Source of the DNA: Streptomyces sp. NBC_00572
GTDB lineage: Bacteria; Actinomycetota; Actinomycetes; Streptomycetales; Streptomycetaceae
Assembly (NCBI RefSeq): GCF_026341815.1
Contig: NZ_JAPENX010000001.1
Coordinates: 5,704,001-5,768,000, forward strand
DNA length: 64,000 bases
Direction of reading: 5' to 3'
How positions within the stretch are numbered: position 1 is the stretch's first letter; every line of letters starts with the position of its first letter. Positions 23,721 to 31,290 of the stretch are shown piece after piece. The notes under the pieces are model-generated. The model had not been told where the DNA came from. It did no database searches and saw nothing but the letters and a program-made list of their open reading frames with translations. A program made the translations under genes and the position numbers.

Positions 23721-24515
23721 GTGGCAGACGATTCGAGATCAAGAGACAAGAACGCATTCGGGTCGTACGCGGCGATCGGTGACAGCTTCACCGAAGGTGT
23801 CGGAGACCCCGGGCCCGACGGGACGTACGTCGGCTGGGCGGACCGCTTCGCGGTGCTGCTCGCCGACCAGCTGCCGGAGCACGACGGCTTCCGCTACGCC
23901 AATCTGGCCGTACGCGGACGCCTCCTCGACCAGATCGTGGCGGAACAGGTCCCCCGGGCGAAGGAACTCGCCCCCGACCTGGTGACCTTCTGCGCCGGCG
24001 GAAACGACATCATCCGCCCCGGCACGGACCCCGACGACGTCGCCGAGCGCTTCGAGCGGGCCGTCGCCGATCTGACCTCCGCCGTCGGCACCGTCATGGT
24101 GACCACCGGCTTCGACACCCGCGACGTGCCCGTGCTCAAGCATCTGCGCGGCAAGATCGCCACCTACACCGCCCACGTCCGCTCCATCGCGGACCGCTAC
24201 GACTGCCCGGTCCTCGACCTGTGGTCCCTGAAGTCCGTGCAGGACCGGCGCGCCTGGGACGACGACCGGCTGCACCTCTCGGCCGAGGGACACACCCGGG
24301 TGGCCCTGCGCGCCGCCCAGGTCCTCGGCCTTCCGGTGCCGGCCGACCCGGACCAGGCGTGGCCGCCGGAGCCCCCGCGCGGCCCGCTGGAGGTGCGGCG
24401 CGACGACATCCACTGGGCGAAGGAGTACCTCGTGCCGTGGATCGGGCGCCGGCTGCGGGGCGAGAGCTCCGGCGACCACGTCGAGGCGAAGCGCCCCGAC
24501 CTCATGCCCCTGTAG
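23721..24515 (+). CDS. SGNH/GDSL-family hydrolase
   Basis: 264 residues, no signal peptide, so probably cytoplasmic. Block I is AAIGDSFTEG (catalytic Ser), block III AGGNDI, and block V DDRLHLSAEGH (Asp and His). Acts on esters of unknown identity. Start GTG 23721 behind GGGAAGGA. Its last 14 bases overlap the tail of the oppositely oriented radical SAM gene. Confidence 0.92.
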   Translation: MADDSRSRDKNAFGSYAAIGDSFTEGVGDPGPDGTYVGWADRFAVLLADQLPEHDGFRYANLAVRGRLLDQIVAEQVPRAKELAPDLVTFCAGGNDIIRPGTDPDDVAERFERAVADLTSAVGTVMVTTGFDTRDVPVLKHLRGKIATYTAHVRSIADRYDCPVLDLWSLKSVQDRRAWDDDRLHLSAEGHTRVALRAAQVLGLPVPADPDQAWPPEPPRGPLEVRRDDIHWAKEYLVPWIGRRLRGESSGDHVEAKRPDLMPL

Positions 24516-25380
24516 TTCCGGGGCCGGCCGGCGGGTGTACGACGGCGGGGATCCGCTCCAGGACCCCGCCGGCGAACACGTCGTACAGCGGCAGCGTCTC
24601 CAGGTGGACGTAGCCGATGTGACAGTCGCAGAGGGCGAGGGGGCAGGCGCGGGGGCGCAGGGCGGAGCGGTACGAGCCGTCGTACAGGTTCCCCAGCTCG
24701 GCCTTGACGAAATGGCAGCGCCGCACCGTCCCCTCGCCGTCCACCGAGATCACCGACTCCCCGGTCCGGCAGGGCAGCCCCGCCGAGCGGTGCGGATGAC
24801 GGCTGTACGGGAAGAGCGGGTCGATCCCCGTCCACTCCGCGGCCTCCGCGTCGGTGTACGTGTGCCCCTCCGCCGCGTTCACCCAGAGGTAGACGTGCGG
24901 CGGCAGTTCGGCCCGCAGCCGCCGGGCGTGCTCCGCGTGCTCGGGAAGCCCGACGACGCCGACACTGAAGCGGACGCCCCGCTCGGTCAGCTCCCCGCAC
25001 TTGGCGAGGAAGCGCTCGTACGGCGTCTGCCCGGGGTGGTACGTGCACCAGAGCGCCACGCTCTCCGGGTCCGCCTCCGCCAGCCAGTCGGTCCGGCAGC
25101 TCAGATTGGTCTGGATCGCGACCCGCTCGACGTGCGGGAGGCGGGACAGCTCGACGAGCGCCCGCCGGTACCAGGAGCGGACCAGCCCCTCGCCCCACGG
25201 GGTGAAGAGGATCCGCAGCCGGTCCCCGGTCTGCGCGGCGGCCCAGCCGGTGAACCGTTCGAGCGCTGCCCGGTCGGCGCGCAGCTGCTCCCGGCTGTCC
25301 CGGCGCTTGGCGAAGGGACAGTAGGGGCAGTCGAAGTCGCAGGAGGAGAGCGGCCCGCGGTAGAGGAGCGTCAGGTCCAT
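24502..25380 (-). CDS. STM4011-family radical SAM protein
   Basis: 292 residues. The cluster motif CDFDCPYC (CxxxCxxC) is at the N-terminus. A second Cys-rich region near the C-terminus (RRCHFVK and CPLALCDCHIGY) suggests an auxiliary Fe-S cluster. Last gene of a five-gene minus-strand operon matching the STM4015-4014-4013-4012-4011 order; it starts 9 nt after the STM4012-type stop. Biochemical role undescribed to my knowledge. Confidence 0.9.
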   Translation of the reverse strand: MDLTLLYRGPLSSCDFDCPYCPFAKRRDSREQLRADRAALERFTGWAAAQTGDRLRILFTPWGEGLVRSWYRRALVELSRLPHVERVAIQTNLSCRTDWLAEADPESVALWCTYHPGQTPYERFLAKCGELTERGVRFSVGVVGLPEHAEHARRLRAELPPHVYLWVNAAEGHTYTDAEAAEWTGIDPLFPYSRHPHRSAGLPCRTGESVISVDGEGTVRRCHFVKAELGNLYDGSYRSALRPRACPLALCDCHIGYVHLETLPLYDVFAGGVLERIPAVVHPPAGPGTTGA

Positions 25381-25389
25381 GTGCGCCCT

Positions 25390-26727
25390 CTACTTCGGCT
25401 CGTACGCGGCCATCGCGGCCCGCACCGAGGAGGAGAAGAGCTCGGGGCCGAGGCCGTCCGAGTGGGCGAGCCCCTCCGGCGACAGCCGCACGAGCCCTTC
25501 CGGTGCCCCTTCGTCCAGCCAGCCCAACGCCTCGAACCGGCCCAGTTCCGCCGGGAAGTCCACGAACGGCGAGGTACCGAACCGCTCCTCGTAACCGGCG
25601 ACCGGCATGCCCTCGGCCTGGAGCAGCGACTGGAGCAGATGGCGGCGGCGGGCCTCGTCGGCGTCGACCCACCGGCCGACCTCGGCCCGTGAGAAGTCCG
25701 CGGTCTCCGTGTAGGCGTCGATGATCGTGCGTATCTCCCGCATGTCGACCGCGTAGTCGAAGGAGTAGTGGAGGGCCGAGGTGTACGAGCGGGCCCCGCA
25801 GCCCAGGCCGATCATCCCGTCCGTCTGACAGGCGTAGTCGTCGGGGCCGAGCGGTGCGGCGTCCGTCCGCCGGAACATCCGCATCGACACCTGCTCGTAG
25901 CCGTGCGCGAGGAGGTGGTCCCGGCCGCACCGGTAGAGGCGCAGTCGCTGCTCGTCCCACTCCCGGTCGGCGGCGGGGGAGATCCGGCCGAGACCGGTGA
26001 GCGGCCGGACGTACAGCGGATAGAGGTACAGCTCCTCCGGGCGCCAGGCGAGTGCGGCGTCGAGCGAGGAGCGCCAGGACTCCTCGGTCTGGCCGTCGAT
26101 GCCGTAGATCAGGTCGATGTTGAGGACCGGGACGCCGGTGTCCCGGATCCGGCCGAGCGCCGATTCGACGTCGGCGCGGCGCTGCGGGCGGACGGCGGCC
26201 CGTGCCTCGGCCTCCACGAAGCTCTGCACCCCGATGCTGAGCCGGGTCGCGCCCCGATCGGCGAGCAGGGCGAGGCGGTCGGCGGTCGCCGTCGCGGGCG
26301 AGGTCTCCACGGAGAGCGGCACCGCCCGCAGATCCACCCCCATCCGCTTCTCGGCGATGTCGCAGAGCCGCTCCAGCTCGCCGGCGGTGAGGAAGGTGGG
26401 CGTGCCGCCGCCGAACGCGGCCGTCGCGAACCGCACGGGAGCCTCGTCGCCGAGGGCCTCGCGGACGGCCGTGGCCTGGCGGTCGAGGGCGTCGAGGTAG
26501 CGCGTGGTCAGCTCGTCGGGGGCGCCGATCCGGGTGAAGAGGTTGCAGAAGCCGCAGCGGACCTCGCAGAACGGGATGTGCGCGTAGAGGGAGAGCGCGT
26601 CCTTCGGCTCGTCCCGCCAGAGCGCGGCGAGGGAGGGCGCCGGGTCGGGGAGCGGCCGGTACGCCGTCTTGTGCGGATAGGCGTAGACATAGCTCCGGTA
26701 CGGACGCGGGACGGTGCCGTCGCTCAT
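25390..26727 (-). CDS. STM4012-family radical SAM protein (HemN/HemW-like)
   Basis: 445 residues. YAHIPFCEVRCGFCNLF carries the CxxxCxxC motif in the HemN-like setting (CEVRCGFC). AFGGGTPTFL, LSIGVQSF and LNIDLIYGIDGQTEESW are also HemN-like, and a C-terminal HemN-type domain follows. Start ATG 26727 has GGGAGG 7 nt upstream and overlaps the previous stop (ATGA). True coproporphyrinogen oxidase activity is unlikely given this operon; HemW-like proteins act in haem transfer or unrelated radical chemistry. Confidence 0.92.
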   Translation of the reverse strand: MSDGTVPRPYRSYVYAYPHKTAYRPLPDPAPSLAALWRDEPKDALSLYAHIPFCEVRCGFCNLFTRIGAPDELTTRYLDALDRQATAVREALGDEAPVRFATAAFGGGTPTFLTAGELERLCDIAEKRMGVDLRAVPLSVETSPATATADRLALLADRGATRLSIGVQSFVEAEARAAVRPQRRADVESALGRIRDTGVPVLNIDLIYGIDGQTEESWRSSLDAALAWRPEELYLYPLYVRPLTGLGRISPAADREWDEQRLRLYRCGRDHLLAHGYEQVSMRMFRRTDAAPLGPDDYACQTDGMIGLGCGARSYTSALHYSFDYAVDMREIRTIIDAYTETADFSRAEVGRWVDADEARRRHLLQSLLQAEGMPVAGYEERFGTSPFVDFPAELGRFEALGWLDEGAPEGLVRLSPEGLAHSDGLGPELFSSSVRAAMAAYEPK

Positions 26728-27560
26728 GCCACGGCCTCCCGCTCCGGGCCCGCGAGCTCGAACTGCGCGTACGGGACGGTCCACACGACCTCGTGGCCGA
26801 GCCGGTGCCCGGTGTGGCCGTCCTCCCCGTACGCGGTGCCGTGGTCGGAGCAGACGATCGCGAAGCACGGGCGGCGGCTGCTCATCGCGGCGAAGAGCCG
26901 ACCGATGTGCCGGTCGACGTACTCGAGGGCGGCCGCGTGGGTGGCCCGGGAGTCGCCGGCCTCGCGGGTGGCGTCCGGCAGGTGGAACCAGTTGGGCTGG
27001 TGCAGGGCGGACACGTTGACGAAGAGGAAGAGCCGCCGCTCGTGCGGGAGACCGGCGACGACCTCCTCGGCGCGGGTCACCTGGGACTCGAAGGAGGTCG
27101 GGGAGGCGACACCGAACGCGGGCTCCCAGTGGCTCTCCTGAAAGAGGCCGGGGAGCACGGAACCGAGCGGCGGCTGCTTGTTGAAGAAGCCGACGCCGCC
27201 GACGCAGACCGTCCGGTAGCCCTCGCCCGCGAGAGCGGACACGAGGTCCGGGGTGTCGTGGACGTAGGTGCCGTCGGCGGTCGACTCACTGCCCGCGAAG
27301 CGCGCCGCGAACAGGCGCGGGTGTGGGCCCGGAGTGGCCGGGGTCGGCAGGAAACCGGCGAAGATCGCCTGGTGGGAGGCGTAGGTGAAGCTGCCGGGCG
27401 CGTGCCGCCGCTCCCAGACGCCGCCGGGCAGATGACGGGCCAGGTTCGGGATGCGGCCCTCGGCCGCGAGCTCGACCGCCACGTCGTACCGCAGCGTGTC
27501 GAGGGTGACCAGGAGCAGATCGTGGCTCCCGACGATCGTGTTCATGTCGGGCTGGTTCAC
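26724..27560 (-). CDS. STM4013-family sulfatase/phosphatase-like hydrolase
   Basis: 278 residues of the alkaline phosphatase/sulfatase superfamily. The N-terminal metal and nucleophile region is LLLVTLDTLRYD. The C-terminal metal site is SDHGTAYGEDGHTGHRLGH. The position after Asp where arylsulfatases have Cys is Thr, so a phosphodiesterase or phosphotransferase activity is as likely as sulfatase. Start GTG 27560 overlaps the upstream stop (GTGA); ATG 27545 is possible. Confidence 0.88.
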   Translation of the reverse strand: MNQPDMNTIVGSHDLLLVTLDTLRYDVAVELAAEGRIPNLARHLPGGVWERRHAPGSFTYASHQAIFAGFLPTPATPGPHPRLFAARFAGSESTADGTYVHDTPDLVSALAGEGYRTVCVGGVGFFNKQPPLGSVLPGLFQESHWEPAFGVASPTSFESQVTRAEEVVAGLPHERRLFLFVNVSALHQPNWFHLPDATREAGDSRATHAAALEYVDRHIGRLFAAMSSRRPCFAIVCSDHGTAYGEDGHTGHRLGHEVVWTVPYAQFELAGPEREAVA

Positions 27561-28714
27561 GCGGTGCTCGTTCCTGTGGTGCGGGTGATGCGGGTGGTGG
27601 TGTGCGGGGTACGGCTGTCCGGGAACTGGGCGGCGACCTGGGCCGCGTACGTGTCGAGGCCCTCGGCACCGCTGCCGGGCAGGCCCGTGAGGCCCGGCAG
27701 CAGATCGCCGAACGCGTTGACCTCGCCCACGGCGAAGCGGCGCCAGCCCGTGGCGGGCAGCAGGTCGACGCCGACGCACCGGGTACCGGGGAAGACGGCG
27801 GCGGCCCGCTCGCACACGTCGAGCGCGTCCGACCACCGGGCGCCGGCCCCGGCGATCGCGGCCCGGGCCGCGTCGAGGTCGCCCCGGGTGCCGCCCAGAT
27901 GCAGATTGGTCATGGGGGAGCGGCTGGTGCGCAGCACCGCGTGGGTGGCCCGGCCGTCGATCACCACCACCCGCAGGTCGGCCGCCCGGCCGCCCTGGGC
28001 GGCCTTGGGCAGCCACCGCTCGACGTGCAGACCGTCCGGGGCGAGGGCGTCCACGATCGCGGCGACCTCGTGCTCGCTCGTGTAGCGGCGGACCCGAAGG
28101 GAGTTGAAGAGGGGCCCGTCCGGCCCGCGCTCCACCGAGGTGGTGGCTTGGACCCGGCCGGCGGCGTTCGTCTCGACCGCGAGCACTCCCGAAGCGGAGG
28201 AGCCGTGCGCGAGCTTCACGAAGAACCGGCGCAGACCGGACTCGGCGGTCAGGCACTTGACGTCCTCCCAGCCGCGCACGGCCGGGGCGGAGGGACCGGA
28301 GGTCGGCGACTCGGGCACCGCCACCCCGGCCGCGTGGAGCAGGCCGTGGCTCAGCCGCTTGTCGAACAGGGCCGCGAGCTCGGTGGGGTCGTCCACGAGA
28401 ACAGCGCCCGCCTCGGTGACCGACCGGGCGAGATCCGCGGTGGCGGCGACGAACCGCTCGTACCAGCGGCCGGTGCCCTCGACCCGGGCCGGATCGTCGA
28501 CCTCCCGAAGGAGCCGGTCGGCCTCCGGATCCTCCCCGGGCGAGTCCAGGCGTACGGTCTCGCCCTCCGCGAACCGTGCCCGGCCGTGCAGGACCTCGGG
28601 CCAGGACACCACCCGCGCCTCGGGCAGCCCGGCGGTCCGCAGCGCGTCCTGGAAGAACGCGACGCGGCGACCCGCCGGATCGCCGACGACCACGAGGCGC
28701 GGGCGGGCGGTCAT
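27557..28714 (-). CDS. STM4014-family ATP-grasp protein
   Basis: 385 residues. The central part resembles an ATP-grasp ligase: FFVKLAHGSSASGVLAV (Lys and flexible loop), HVERWLPK, LRVVVIDGRATHAVLR and VGVDLLPATGWRRFAVGEVNAFGD with the Mg-binding Glu/Asn. Such enzymes form amide or ester bonds through acyl-phosphates. Start ATG 28714 overlaps the STM4015-type stop (ATGA). The C-terminal tail is Thr/Arg-rich and probably disordered. Confidence 0.88.
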   Translation of the reverse strand: MTARPRLVVVGDPAGRRVAFFQDALRTAGLPEARVVSWPEVLHGRARFAEGETVRLDSPGEDPEADRLLREVDDPARVEGTGRWYERFVAATADLARSVTEAGAVLVDDPTELAALFDKRLSHGLLHAAGVAVPESPTSGPSAPAVRGWEDVKCLTAESGLRRFFVKLAHGSSASGVLAVETNAAGRVQATTSVERGPDGPLFNSLRVRRYTSEHEVAAIVDALAPDGLHVERWLPKAAQGGRAADLRVVVIDGRATHAVLRTSRSPMTNLHLGGTRGDLDAARAAIAGAGARWSDALDVCERAAAVFPGTRCVGVDLLPATGWRRFAVGEVNAFGDLLPGLTGLPGSGAEGLDTYAAQVAAQFPDSRTPHTTTRITRTTGTSTA

Positions 28715-29670
28715 TCGGCGACCGCGACGTACCGCCAGACCCGGCCGTCCTCCTCGTCGTCCGCCTCCTGCGGGTCGTCGAGGTCGACGACCACGCCGTG
28801 CGGGGCGAGCGCGGCGAGCACGCGCGAGCGCATGTCCTCCGACAGGTAGTGGTGGGAGAGGTCGAGGTGAGTGAGGTGGGTCAGCGGCTGTCCGTCGAGC
28901 AGGGCCGCCGCGCCCTCGTCCGTGAGGACGCCCATCGACAGGTCGAGCCGCTCGATCCGGGCGAGGACGGGGGCGCCCGCCACGGCGGCTGCCACGGCGT
29001 CCTGGATCACGCTGTTGCGCAGCCCGAGCGAGCGAAGGGCGGGGAACGCCGCGCCCGAGAGCAGCGGCGCGAGGTCGTCCGCCGTGCTGTCGCCGCCGTA
29101 CTCGTCGGTGCCGAGCCAGAGTTCCAGCTTCTCCAGGGCGGGCAGGTCACTGCCCACGATCCCGCGAACGACCTCGGCACCCAGACCGCCGGTCTCCACG
29201 ACCAGGCTCTCCAGACCGGTGTGCCGGATCGAGGGGAAGACGAGGTTCGTGCCACCGCGGACCCCGAACTCCCGCAGGGCCGGGTAGGCGGCGAGCAGCG
29301 GGGTCACATCGGACTGGATGATCCAGGAGATCTCGCAGTCCTCGCCCGCCATGTCGCCGAGGAAGACCGCCTCCAGGGTGGTGAACCGGTTGTTGGCGGC
29401 GATGAGCGCCGTGACGATGTCGGCCGACGAGTTCTCGTACGCCTCGTCCCAGCCGCCGACGACCAGGGCGCGCACCCGGCCCACGTCGACCGTCTTCAGG
29501 AACCGCTCGAACCGCGCACCCCACTGCTCGTCGTCGTCCTCGCAGTAGGTCGGCGAGGAGAGCCGCCAGGCGACGGCCGCGGCGTCGGGCAGCTCGATCT
29601 CCGTGTCCGTGTCCGGGAAGTGGAACACGGGCAGGCCGTGGAATTCCTCGATGTAGTGGCCAACGGTCAT
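28711..29670 (-). CDS. STM4015-family leucine-rich-repeat protein
   Basis: 319 residues. After an N-terminal domain of about 120 residues come LRR-like units such as YPALREFGVRGGTNL, LESLVVETGGLG, LPALEKLELWLG, FPALRSLGLRNS, IERLDLSMGVLTDEGAAALL and LTHLDLSHHYLSEDM. It is likely a protein-interaction module. First gene of the five-gene operon, starting 47 nt downstream of a PafBC-like promoter. Confidence 0.9.
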   Translation of the reverse strand: MTVGHYIEEFHGLPVFHFPDTDTEIELPDAAAVAWRLSSPTYCEDDDEQWGARFERFLKTVDVGRVRALVVGGWDEAYENSSADIVTALIAANNRFTTLEAVFLGDMAGEDCEISWIIQSDVTPLLAAYPALREFGVRGGTNLVFPSIRHTGLESLVVETGGLGAEVVRGIVGSDLPALEKLELWLGTDEYGGDSTADDLAPLLSGAAFPALRSLGLRNSVIQDAVAAAVAGAPVLARIERLDLSMGVLTDEGAAALLDGQPLTHLTHLDLSHHYLSEDMRSRVLAALAPHGVVVDLDDPQEADDEEDGRVWRYVAVAE

Positions 29671-29716
29671 GACTGCGCTCCCGGCAACGGACGGCGTGGA
29701 TCGGCTGATCCCAAGA

Positions 29717-29739
29717 GTTCTACCAAGCGGCACCGACAG
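29717..29739 (-). promoter_or_regulatory. PafBC/RecA-NDp-like DNA-damage promoter for the STM4015-4011 operon
   Basis: On the minus strand: CTGTCGGTG, exactly 8 nt, then TAGAAC. The published actinobacterial DNA-damage motif is TTGTCRGTG-N8-TAnnnT: 8 of 9 -35-side bases and the TA of the -10 match, with exact spacing. The ATG of the first gene lies 46 nt beyond the -10. Confidence 0.6.
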
Positions 29740-29779
29740 CGCCCGCCGGTGGGTGGGCCTCCAGGGTGAGCGGGGTCGA

Positions 29780-29802
29780 TTGTCAGACCCGGCCTCTAGC
29801 GT
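29780..29802 (+). promoter_or_regulatory. PafBC/RecA-NDp-like DNA-damage promoter for the divergent operon
   Basis: TTGTCAGAC, 8 nt (CCGGCCTC), TAGCGT. It matches TTGTCRGTG-N8-TAnnnT at the first seven positions, the exact spacing and the full -10. The next start codon (29849) lies 46 nt beyond, mirroring the leftward promoter. Confidence 0.65.
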
Positions 29803-29848
29803 CGTTCTCGTGTTCGGCCGCACCGCGCCGAACGGGGAGGGGAGAGCC

Positions 29849-30175
29849 ATGTACCGGCAGGGAGACGTACTGATCGCGCCCGTCGCGGAGACGGCCGTTC
29901 CGGAGCGGGTGAAGACGGTGGCGGGGGAGCCGAGGGACGCCCGGGGGCGCCTGGTCCTCGCCCTCGGCGAGGTGACCGGCCACGCCCACGCGATTCCCGG
30001 CCCCGGCCGACTCGTGCGGGAGCCGGGGCCCTTCGGCCCTTTCCTGCTCGAACTGCCCGAGGGCGGCCGGGTGGTGCACGAGGAGCACGCTCCGATACCG
30101 CTGCCCAAGGGCTGGTACCGGGTGGTGCGCCAGCGGGAGTACGTGCCCGGGGCGTACCGGATCGTCGCGGACTGA
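29849..30175 (+). CDS. Small uncharacterised protein, partner of the DUF6745-like gene
   Basis: 108 residues beginning MYRQGDVLIAPV, with a conserved-looking GEVTGHAHAI and VVHEEHAPIPLPKGWYRVVRQREY. It appears to be a compact beta-rich soluble protein with a possible His cluster (GHAH, HEEH). Strong RBS GGGGAGGGGAG before ATG 29849. It lies 26 nt upstream of the DUF6745-like gene and behind a PafBC-like promoter. No known function. Confidence 0.8.
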   Translation: MYRQGDVLIAPVAETAVPERVKTVAGEPRDARGRLVLALGEVTGHAHAIPGPGRLVREPGPFGPFLLELPEGGRVVHEEHAPIPLPKGWYRVVRQREYVPGAYRIVAD

Positions 30176-30201
30176 CCGAGAGAATCCCTGGGGGCTTCCA
30201 C

Positions 30202-31290
30202 ATGAACCACGCCGACATGAACCACACCACCGCACAGGACAAGTGGCGGTCCGTCGCCGCGGCCACCGGGCCCGCCGACCGCGCCGCCGCGGAGGCCGGC
30301 GTCCGGCTCGCCTACCGCACGGCCGGCCTGGCCGAACCCGCGCGCGTGCTCTGGGCGGACTCGCCGCTCGCGGCCGTCGCGCTCGTACGGGGGCTGAGCG
30401 ATCAGGGCCGTTCGGTACGGGACGAGGTGCGCACCCGGCCGTGGGCCGAGGAACGGCGCCGACTCCACGACGCCCTCGGCCCGGCGGGCTGGGCGGCCCA
30501 CTGGCAGGCGACCGGGGCCCACCTCTGGGACCTCACCCGAAGCCTGGCCGACCGGATACGGGCGGGGGTGACGGAGGCCGCCACGTCGGCCGGCTCCGTG
30601 ACGCCGGCCGACTCCGATGCGTCCGAGTCCGCCTCGTCCGGCACCGCCTCGTCCTCGCGAGCGGCCACCGCCGTGCGGCTCGTGCTGCTCGACGCGGTGC
30701 TGGGTCAGCACGACGCCGCCTGGCTCGCCGCCTTCGACGGTCAGGGGGACCGTCTCGCGGGCCTCGCCGTCGTTGCCGGACACGCGGGCTGGTGGTGGCC
30801 GTACGAGAACGTCGCCGTGGTCTGCGAGCGGCCCGTGGAGCTTCACCGGGACGAGGCGGGGCGCCTCGACCGGGGCGACGGCCCCGCGCTCGCCTTCGCC
30901 GACGGATTCGCCCTGCACGCCTGGCGGGGCATGCCGGTGCCCGCCGAGTTCCTCGCCGGTCTCGCAGGCCTCACCCCGGAGCGGATACGGCAGGAGGAGA
31001 ACGCCGAACTGCGGCGGGTGATGCTGGAGTACTACGGCTACGACCGCTACCTCGCCGCCTCGGGAGCCCGGCACCAGCACCGCGACGAGACCGGTGTCCT
31101 GTGGCGCATCGAGCTGGACGACGACGAGGACGTGGCGATGGTCGAGGTGGTCAACTCGACGCCCGAGCCCGACGGCAGCCACCGCACGTACTGGCTCCGG
31201 GTCCCGCCCGCGACCCGGACCGCGCGAGAGGGCGTCGCGTGGACCTTCGGGCTGCACCCCGACGCGTACGAGCTGCTCGTCCAGACCTGA
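30202..31290 (+). CDS. DUF6745-like protein of unknown function
   Basis: 362 residues. The C-terminal half has blocks I associate with DUF6745: WWWPYENVAVVCERP, LHAWRGMPVP and a Glu/Asp-rich region around RIELDDDEDVAMVEVVNST. The N-terminal half is Ala-rich and helical. No catalytic motif recognised. Start ATG 30202, co-transcribed with the small upstream gene. Its placement divergent from the STM401x operon, with a matching promoter type, suggests a common process. Confidence 0.75.
   Translation: MNHADMNHTTAQDKWRSVAAATGPADRAAAEAGVRLAYRTAGLAEPARVLWADSPLAAVALVRGLSDQGRSVRDEVRTRPWAEERRRLHDALGPAGWAAHWQATGAHLWDLTRSLADRIRAGVTEAATSAGSVTPADSDASESASSGTASSSRAATAVRLVLLDAVLGQHDAAWLAAFDGQGDRLAGLAVVAGHAGWWWPYENVAVVCERPVELHRDEAGRLDRGDGPALAFADGFALHAWRGMPVPAEFLAGLAGLTPERIRQEENAELRRVMLEYYGYDRYLAASGARHQHRDETGVLWRIELDDDEDVAMVEVVNSTPEPDGSHRTYWLRVPPATRTAREGVAWTFGLHPDAYELLVQT

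Follow-up and report, generated by a model that had tools for sequence, protein, structure and literature searches.

PafBC-type promoter sequences point to DNA-damage control of a conserved seven-gene set, STM4011-4015 with DUF6745, in Streptomyces

Two divergent transcription units of Streptomyces sp. NBC_00572, comprising seven genes, lie behind promoter sequences of the PafBC (RecA-NDp) type, in which TTGTCRG precedes a -10-like element, and the conservation of these sequences ahead of orthologous genes makes it very probable that both units are controlled by DNA damage in Streptomyces. The units are located in a 64,000 nt stretch of contig NZ_JAPENX010000001.1 (positions 5,704,001 to 5,768,000), the whole of which is referred to here as the window. 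On the minus strand the gene order is STM4015, STM4014, STM4013, STM4012, STM4011, and all five products score above their NCBIfam cut-offs. On the plus strand a gene for a small protein, called small below, is followed by a DUF6745 gene. The divergent intergenic region, 29671-29848, measures 178 bp. The wider proposal, that the seven genes in their two transcription units make up a DNA-damage-response system in which the tail of STM4015 is modified by the enzymes, is close to evenly balanced and leans slightly towards doubt. The features, by window position, are:

24502..25380, minus strand: STM4011-family radical S-adenosylmethionine (SAM) protein (NF038073, 422.6 bits against a cut-off of 200), with a CX3CX2C cluster motif and five conserved C-terminal Cys in the alignment
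25390..26727, minus strand: STM4012-family HemN-like radical SAM protein (NF006067, 635.4 bits against a cut-off of 380)
26724..27545, minus strand: STM4013-family hydrolase of the alkaline phosphatase/sulfatase superfamily (NF038075, 422.6 against 250; Pfam Sulfatase, 40.4 against 25)
27557..28714, minus strand: STM4014-family ATP-grasp protein (NF038074, 440.3 against 175)
28711..29670, minus strand: STM4015-family leucine-rich-repeat (LRR) protein, first gene of the minus-strand operon, C-terminus ...WRYVAVAE (NF038076, 397.9 against 275)
29717..29739, minus strand: PafBC/RecA-NDp-type promoter sequence of the STM4015 operon, of the sub-class with TTGG ahead of TAGAAC (motif scan and orthologue conservation)
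29780..29802, plus strand: PafBC/RecA-NDp-type promoter sequence of the small-DUF6745 pair, of the GAC sub-type (motif scan and orthologue conservation)
29849..30175, plus strand: small protein of 108 amino acids (aa) with invariant G-H-x-H and H-x-E-H motifs, predicted all-beta (alignment and structure model)
30202..31290, plus strand: DUF6745 protein (PF20530, E 1.1e-114)

An initial annotation of this DNA had named two radical SAM genes and genes for ATP-grasp, LRR, small and DUF6745-like proteins, all of which are confirmed, the STM families by their NCBIfam cut-offs and DUF6745 by the E value of its match. Its term "sulfatase-like" holds for the fold of STM4013 and fails for the formylglycine motif, none of which is seen in the alignment.

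Two damage-type motifs had also been predicted in the divergent region, each with its start codon 46 nt away, and both are present there. The site of the STM4015 operon reads CTGTCGGTG-N8-TAGAAC (29717-29739, minus strand) and that of the small-DUF6745 pair reads TTGTCAGAC-N8-TAGCGT (29780-29802, plus strand). Each shows two mismatches to TTGTCRGTG-N8-TAnnnT and, despite these, is a member of a conserved sub-type. Within the window alone three matches occur at no more than two mismatches, a number within chance (1.07 expected; three reached in 9 of 100 shuffles), and as this count is not significant the whole genome and the orthologues were used to assess significance. Genome-wide, at no more than one mismatch, 101 motif sites are found compared with 8 for the pattern read backwards as a control. 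The GAC variant, TTGTCAGACC-N7-TAnnnT, occurs at 10 genome sites, the window's own included, and at none in the control. The LexA SOS box, GAAC-N4-GTTC, was also considered; allowing no more than one mismatch, it has no match in 29671-29848.

Downstream reading frames were taken for at least 40 genome sites and a family search was carried out on 17 of them. Genes behind the searched sites include recA, ruvC, dnaX, a dnaN-like clamp, priA, rarA, an AddB-like nuclease and a macro-domain gene, the remainder including one WGR protein, one TnpB-like protein and three without any family match (L011, L016, L025). Outside the 17, the genes behind sites L005 and L007 are transporters by eye. The GAC variant TTGTCNGACC precedes an SNF2 helicase, two ligA-type genes and xth (exodeoxyribonuclease III) at G000:C2:717973, 4500101, 5468959 and 7037478; the site at 7037478, one of the two ligA-type sites, is without the TA of the -10. 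By these assignments both sub-types mark a gene set rich in DNA-repair genes, and not every site need be functional. The macro-domain gene of this genome stands behind a perfect site (L002), and SCO6735, a macro-domain gene of S. coelicolor behind a RecA-NDp promoter, is described in PMC5087735 as 5-fold up after ultraviolet irradiation. A further perfect PafBC-type site lies 7 nt ahead of a TnpB/IS605-OrfB-like gene (L014, G000:C2:6037249).

Conservation was scored with a weight matrix built from 59 other sites of this genome, using the 200 nt upstream of each gene and counting identical upstreams once. Among Streptomyces genomes, i.e. those of the same genus as the source, whose loci are related and hence not independent trials, the first STM4015 copy scores at least 5 in 53/53 upstreams and at least 10 in 51/53, and small scores at least 10 in all 42. 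Control upstreams reach a score of 5 in 1/53 (STM4014), 0/45 (STM4013), 0/34 (STM4012), 0/34 (STM4011) and 0/41 (DUF6745) cases. Together with 18 of 19 small genes in other actinomycetes (below), this answers in the affirmative the check put forward with the initial annotation, namely whether the motif is kept ahead of orthologous genes.

As read from the alignments, the two promoters of the divergent region are different sub-types. Ahead of small, positions 8-9 are TG in 20/42 and AC in 21/42 upstreams, with GT nearly always at 22-23. Ahead of STM4015, positions 14, 15 and 16 are T, T and G in 50, 53 and 53 of the 53 upstreams and the last base is C in 47; among the genome-wide sites TTG at 14-16 and a last-base C each occur in 2/59. 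The TTG resembles an extended -10. Such a sub-class (TTG in about 50/53, final C in 47/53) could instead indicate a different WYL-type activator, or plain constitutive -10 promoters, with no damage response involved. The 5' element, however, is common to the recA, ruvC and xth promoters, and a second, damage-motif-like type of palindrome precedes small in Deinococcus, making this explanation highly improbable.

Loci beyond the genus were collected by searching one genome per species with the STM4013 alignment, the resulting 80 loci being the best 80 of 570 relatives. Small was scored in 19 actinomycete loci outside Streptomyces; there the small-DUF6745 pair sits beyond STM4011, away from STM4015, so that the small promoter is physically separate from the STM4015 promoter. 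Small nevertheless has a motif score of at least 10 in 18/19 loci, with a shuffle p of no more than 0.02 in 18/19 (100 single-base shuffles each). The start codon follows the motif by 6-7 nt in 14 of these 18 small genes, the spacing of a leaderless transcript. Several other damage-type sites, also in the source genome, lie 6-7 nt from a start codon, as expected of leaderless transcripts. The motif of STM4015 is weaker in these actinomycetes, scoring at least 5 in 15/29 and at least 10 in 6/29. Controls there give 1/29 for STM4014, 0/29 for STM4013, 1/29 for STM4012, 0/29 for STM4011 and 0/18 for DUF6745, and later (non-first) STM4015 copies carry the motif in 3/27.

A different control sequence is found on three Deinococcus plasmids, where the small-DUF6745 pair is convergent to the STM operon. 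Palindromes of 17 bp resembling the radiation/desiccation response motif (RDRM) lie 25-41 nt ahead of small in all three loci, which are related to one another. Matches were scored out of 17 against the RDRM consensus, each 14.8-kb locus being scanned whole with 30 shuffles each; the consensus given in PMC8533742 was taken for comparison. In two loci the palindrome is the best match of the 14.8 kb and its score is reached by 0/30 shuffles: TTATGTTATAGACGTAA in L153 (14/17) and TTATGTTGCTAACATAA in L154 (13/17). The L153 palindrome is one base off the published ddrF site, and the positions are alike when compared with Table 4 of PMC1978522.

Several observations weigh against damage control or limit its extent. 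Outside Streptomyces, 12 of 30 first-copy STM4015 upstreams fall short of a shuffle p of 0.02; they include those of Rhodococcus, Prescottella, Nocardiopsis, Virgisporangium and several Actinomadura. In other phyla only 1/18 small genes has the actinobacterial motif ahead of it (score at least 10), an absence that also serves as a negative control, and upstream of 15 small genes outside actinobacteria and Deinococcus no recognisable box was found. In the third Deinococcus locus (L152) the palindrome TTACGCTAATTACGTAA scores 12/17, is tied with one other place and is equalled by 6/30 shuffles, no better than shuffled sequence, so that this site is supported by position only; ahead of STM4015 none of the three Deinococcus loci has an RDRM-type palindrome. 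In S. venezuelae an initial search, as related in PMC9380542, suggested that the mycobacterial (M. smegmatis) PafBC motif is not conserved. The same paper presents the PafBC response as not experimentally established in Streptomyces, and PMC8533742 describes the RDRM sequence alone as not enough for DdrO binding. As an observation apart, the STM4015 upstream of Rhodococcus maanshanensis (L233) has no forward site and a strong reverse-strand one (score 20.7) that is directed away from the operon.

The seven genes are linked across genomes. Using 199 Streptomyces genomes, STM4015 was found above its cut-off in 91 and a strong DUF6745 (E 3.8e-107 or better) in 77; 76 of these 77 also have STM4015, and in 73 the two are divergent neighbours within 5 kb (counts uncorrected for phylogeny). 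Small was found in 44 of 91 loci (the best 80 of 570 relatives plus 11 others), always directly before DUF6745 on the same strand; many of the 91 locus stretches are incomplete, and absence of small there therefore means little. Small-DUF6745 loci occur in Planctomycetota, Chloroflexota, Armatimonadota, Obscuribacterales, Methylobacterium and Deinococcus (phyla assigned in part from record titles), and the seven-gene set is present in several phyla with varying gene order. The view of the initial annotation that the seven genes form one system gains support from the 76/77 co-occurrence and from this cross-phylum linkage. In Salmonella, Paenibacillus and Bacteroides, STM4015, STM4014 and STM4011 are present; in the stretches examined the small-DUF6745 pair was not seen, and pattern scans of those stretches gave no recognisable damage-type promoter. 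In a sample of 396 genomes of the phylum just one genome of another genus has STM4015 above the cut-off. One locus (L120, genome G142), with a strong DUF6745 and only a piece of STM4011 beside it, looks like a decayed locus.

STM4015 differs from its operon partners in its rate of change. Its identity to the window copy is 49-61% in most loci in which STM4011-4013 reach about 74-90%, and it occurs in tandem, with up to about six copies, most full copies measuring about 300-340 aa. Its end is conserved: a variable acidic linker is followed by the heptapeptide R-[YF]-[VIT]-x-V-[SGA]-E, and of 168 copies measuring 260-360 aa, 160 have Glu as their last residue (one protein pair counted twice). 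When the 308 columns are ranked by conservation, the terminal Glu comes 26th and the other tail columns 55th to 149th, compared with 253rd to 285th for the three columns just before the tail. The tail is kept in nearly all copies of the tandem arrays. From this pattern STM4015 may be inferred to behave like a client protein.

Some STM4015 genes are interrupted. In two other Streptomyces genomes (L282 and L283 in G004; L284 and L285 in G756) the gene is split at codons ~111-117, and both halves carry a 19-bp repeat that stands intact at window 29320-29338 in STM4015. An integrase-like gene (Pfam phage-integrase domains, just under cut-off) adjoins one half, and in G004 a GntR-type regulator adjoins the other. 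The repeat looks like an attachment site.

The enzymes of the operon fit modification of a protein or peptide, to judge by their families. The nearest solved sequences to STM4012 are HemN (1olt) and the methyltransferase NocN (9p2u). An assignment of STM4012 as HemN or HemW was rejected, the scores of 131.3 and 130.2 falling below the equivalog cut-offs of 324.95 and 205.4. STM4011 was also considered as a SPASM-type radical SAM protein with an auxiliary cluster: the last three of its five conserved C-terminal Cys are spaced CX4CXC in the alignment, and no solved relative of this protein was found at E 0.01 or better. Alignments of STM4013 show an SFTYAAH-type stretch with an invariant Thr and a DHGT stretch. 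The formylglycine site of sulfatases is C/S-x-P-x-R, with Cys or Ser where STM4013 has Thr, and STM4013 was accordingly rejected as an ordinary sulfatase. STM4014 weakly matches the RimK family and, also weakly, cyanophycin synthase (E 0.0063).

It can be proposed, tentatively, that these operon enzymes modify the STM4015 tail. STM4015 would be the client, its LRR binding a partner and its acidic linker presenting the C-terminal heptapeptide R-Y/F-V/I/T-x-V-S/G/A-E-COOH. STM4011, STM4012, STM4014 and STM4013 would install or process the modification at that tail. By analogy with RimK, a plausible target of STM4014 would be the carboxylate of the terminal Glu, and tandem STM4015 copies would widen the range of partners. 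The small and DUF6745 proteins would form a second arm, as sensor or effector. Expression would follow from damage: more single-stranded DNA would activate PafBC, which together with RNA polymerase would transcribe both units; the small-DUF6745 unit of Deinococcus would instead be switched on when the repressor DdrO is lost. In mycobacteria PafBC is indeed described as activated by single-stranded DNA and as acting by sigma adaptation (PMC11804915). The broadest form of the proposal, in which LRR proteins with a modified C-terminal peptide provide a damage-armed, modification-dependent recognition, with PafBC controlling the enzymes in actinomycetes and DdrO controlling the small-DUF6745 arm in Deinococcus, is somewhat doubtful.

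STM4015 copies outside operons were compared according to the presence of the operon in the genome. With an operon 20 copies keep the tail and 6 lose it; without one, 1 keeps it and 5 lose it (Fisher p 0.011, related copies being counted as independent). Weighing against a modified tail, the tail-less copies are largely one subfamily that is present also in genomes with the operon, and G069, one of the six genomes scored as having no operon, does contain a match to STM4013, in a different subgroup (E 2.3e-99); the comparison is for these reasons suggestive only. The link of STM4014 to RimK is weak (E 2.7e-6, 27 bits compared with a family cut-off of 143.4), and the tail might instead serve as a signal for docking or stability. 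An STM4013 match at E about 1e-100 is also present in some Streptomyces genomes that have no STM4015.

The same enzymes could serve other ends. Radical SAM proteins, an ATP-grasp protein and a hydrolase constitute a tool set like that of ribosomally synthesised and post-translationally modified peptides (RiPPs), and an STM4013-like hydrolase is found in a cluster with lasso-B2 and NUDIX genes, such that the STM4015 tail or a free metabolite might be turned into a released product, e.g. a radioprotectant, signal or redox cofactor. However, the annotated operon records examined show no transporter or protease as a regular companion of the set, and known precursor peptides bear little resemblance to an LRR scaffold of 300 aa; synthesis of a small molecule or cofactor is quite unlikely. 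A direct part in repairing or clearing away damaged nucleotides, nucleic acids or proteins, in which STM4015 would be an unmodified targeting subunit, would agree with a motif common to repair genes and with the weak likeness of STM4013 to nucleotide pyrophosphatase/phosphodiesterases. It is very unlikely, as no nucleic-acid-binding Pfam domain is found in the seven proteins and the C-terminal tail of STM4015 would be left unexplained. STM4013-like hydrolases of 44-46% identity are carried by plasmids of Streptomyces albidoflavus (L155, 7738-9901) and Kitasatospora (L157), the S. albidoflavus gene having NUDIX and lasso B2 genes next to it and type I-E Cas genes close by.

The small and DUF6745 proteins offer fewer likenesses. 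No Pfam or NCBIfam family matches the small protein at E 0.01 or better; its GHxH and HxEH motifs are invariant in the alignment, and it is possibly metal-binding. Its model is confidently all-beta (pLDDT 86.5), with cupins at Z 2.0-2.1 only, below unrelated folds at 2.6-2.7. Fold searches with the models gave nothing in Foldseek at E 0.001 or better and nothing in VIA above Z 2.7 for small or 4.2 for DUF6745; these nulls show neither a new nor an old fold. In the aligned non-actinobacterial DUF6745 proteins the N-terminal half is a leucine-rich repeat, the profile matching LRRs in the PDB. Microcystis phages (PP681321, KF356199 and others) encode a protein distantly related to small, at 33-35% identity, and PHROGs include relatives of small and DUF6745.

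The matches of the DUF6745 profile in the PDB are to LRRs of plant immune receptors, which may be mere LRR likeness or may hint at an anti-phage, immune-type system. In such a system the LRRs of STM4015 and DUF6745 would recognise phage components, damage would be only the alarm, and the enzymes would arm the receptor or make a signal. Fast evolution and tandem multiplication of the LRR proteins, patchy presence (STM4015 above its cut-off in 193 of 392 Streptomyces genomes) and copies on plasmids would all be in keeping with this. Yet PADLOC matches at E 0.1 or better were obtained for two of the seven proteins, both partial (STM4012, 2.5e-7; DUF6745, 0.029), and neither of the two window neighbours scanned, one for a GDSL lipase and the other for a SIMPL protein, is a defence gene, neighbourhoods elsewhere being unscanned. 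An immune role is unlikely on this balance.

The initial annotation knew of no described function for this gene set, and the literature searched, so far as its text was available, likewise yields no paper on the function of the STM4011-4015 families or DUF6745, Salmonella sigma-54 and positive-selection papers listing the genes incidentally. A conserved set of five NCBIfam families plus DUF6745, its function undescribed in the literature found, thereby gains a likely inducing condition, under which these families could be studied. Two unrelated kinds of damage-type control sequence in two phyla may be taken as a strong hint of the system's purpose. The finding is relevant, too, to the question of a working RecA-NDp/PafBC response in Streptomyces, which is not settled in the S. 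venezuelae LexA paper (PMC9380542).

Compared with known systems, the five minus-strand genes are members of the STM4011-4015 NCBIfam families, in the gene order of Salmonella and Paenibacillus plasmid records. To the sets of Salmonella, Paenibacillus and Bacteroides the present locus adds the small-DUF6745 unit and the damage-type promoters. With the PafBC (RecA-NDp) regulon of Actinomycetota it shares the promoter sequence and the kind of genes behind other sites; it differs in that the STM set and small-DUF6745 are new targets, as far as the literature was searched, and in that the STM4015 promoters form a sub-class with a candidate extended -10. The 17-bp palindromes ahead of small are like those of the DdrO regulon of Deinococcus and differ in species and in being plasmid-borne; they are candidate DdrO sites, that of L152 a weak one. 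Pyrroloquinoline quinone (PQQ) and mycofactocin are radical SAM RiPP/cofactor systems. Such systems are alike in the two radical SAM proteins, one HemN/NocN-like, and in the conserved C-terminal peptide, and unlike in their substrate, the candidate here being a 300-aa LRR protein and not a short precursor. RimK-type ATP-grasp ligases are matched weakly by STM4014, and the candidate substrate, STM4015, ends in Glu.

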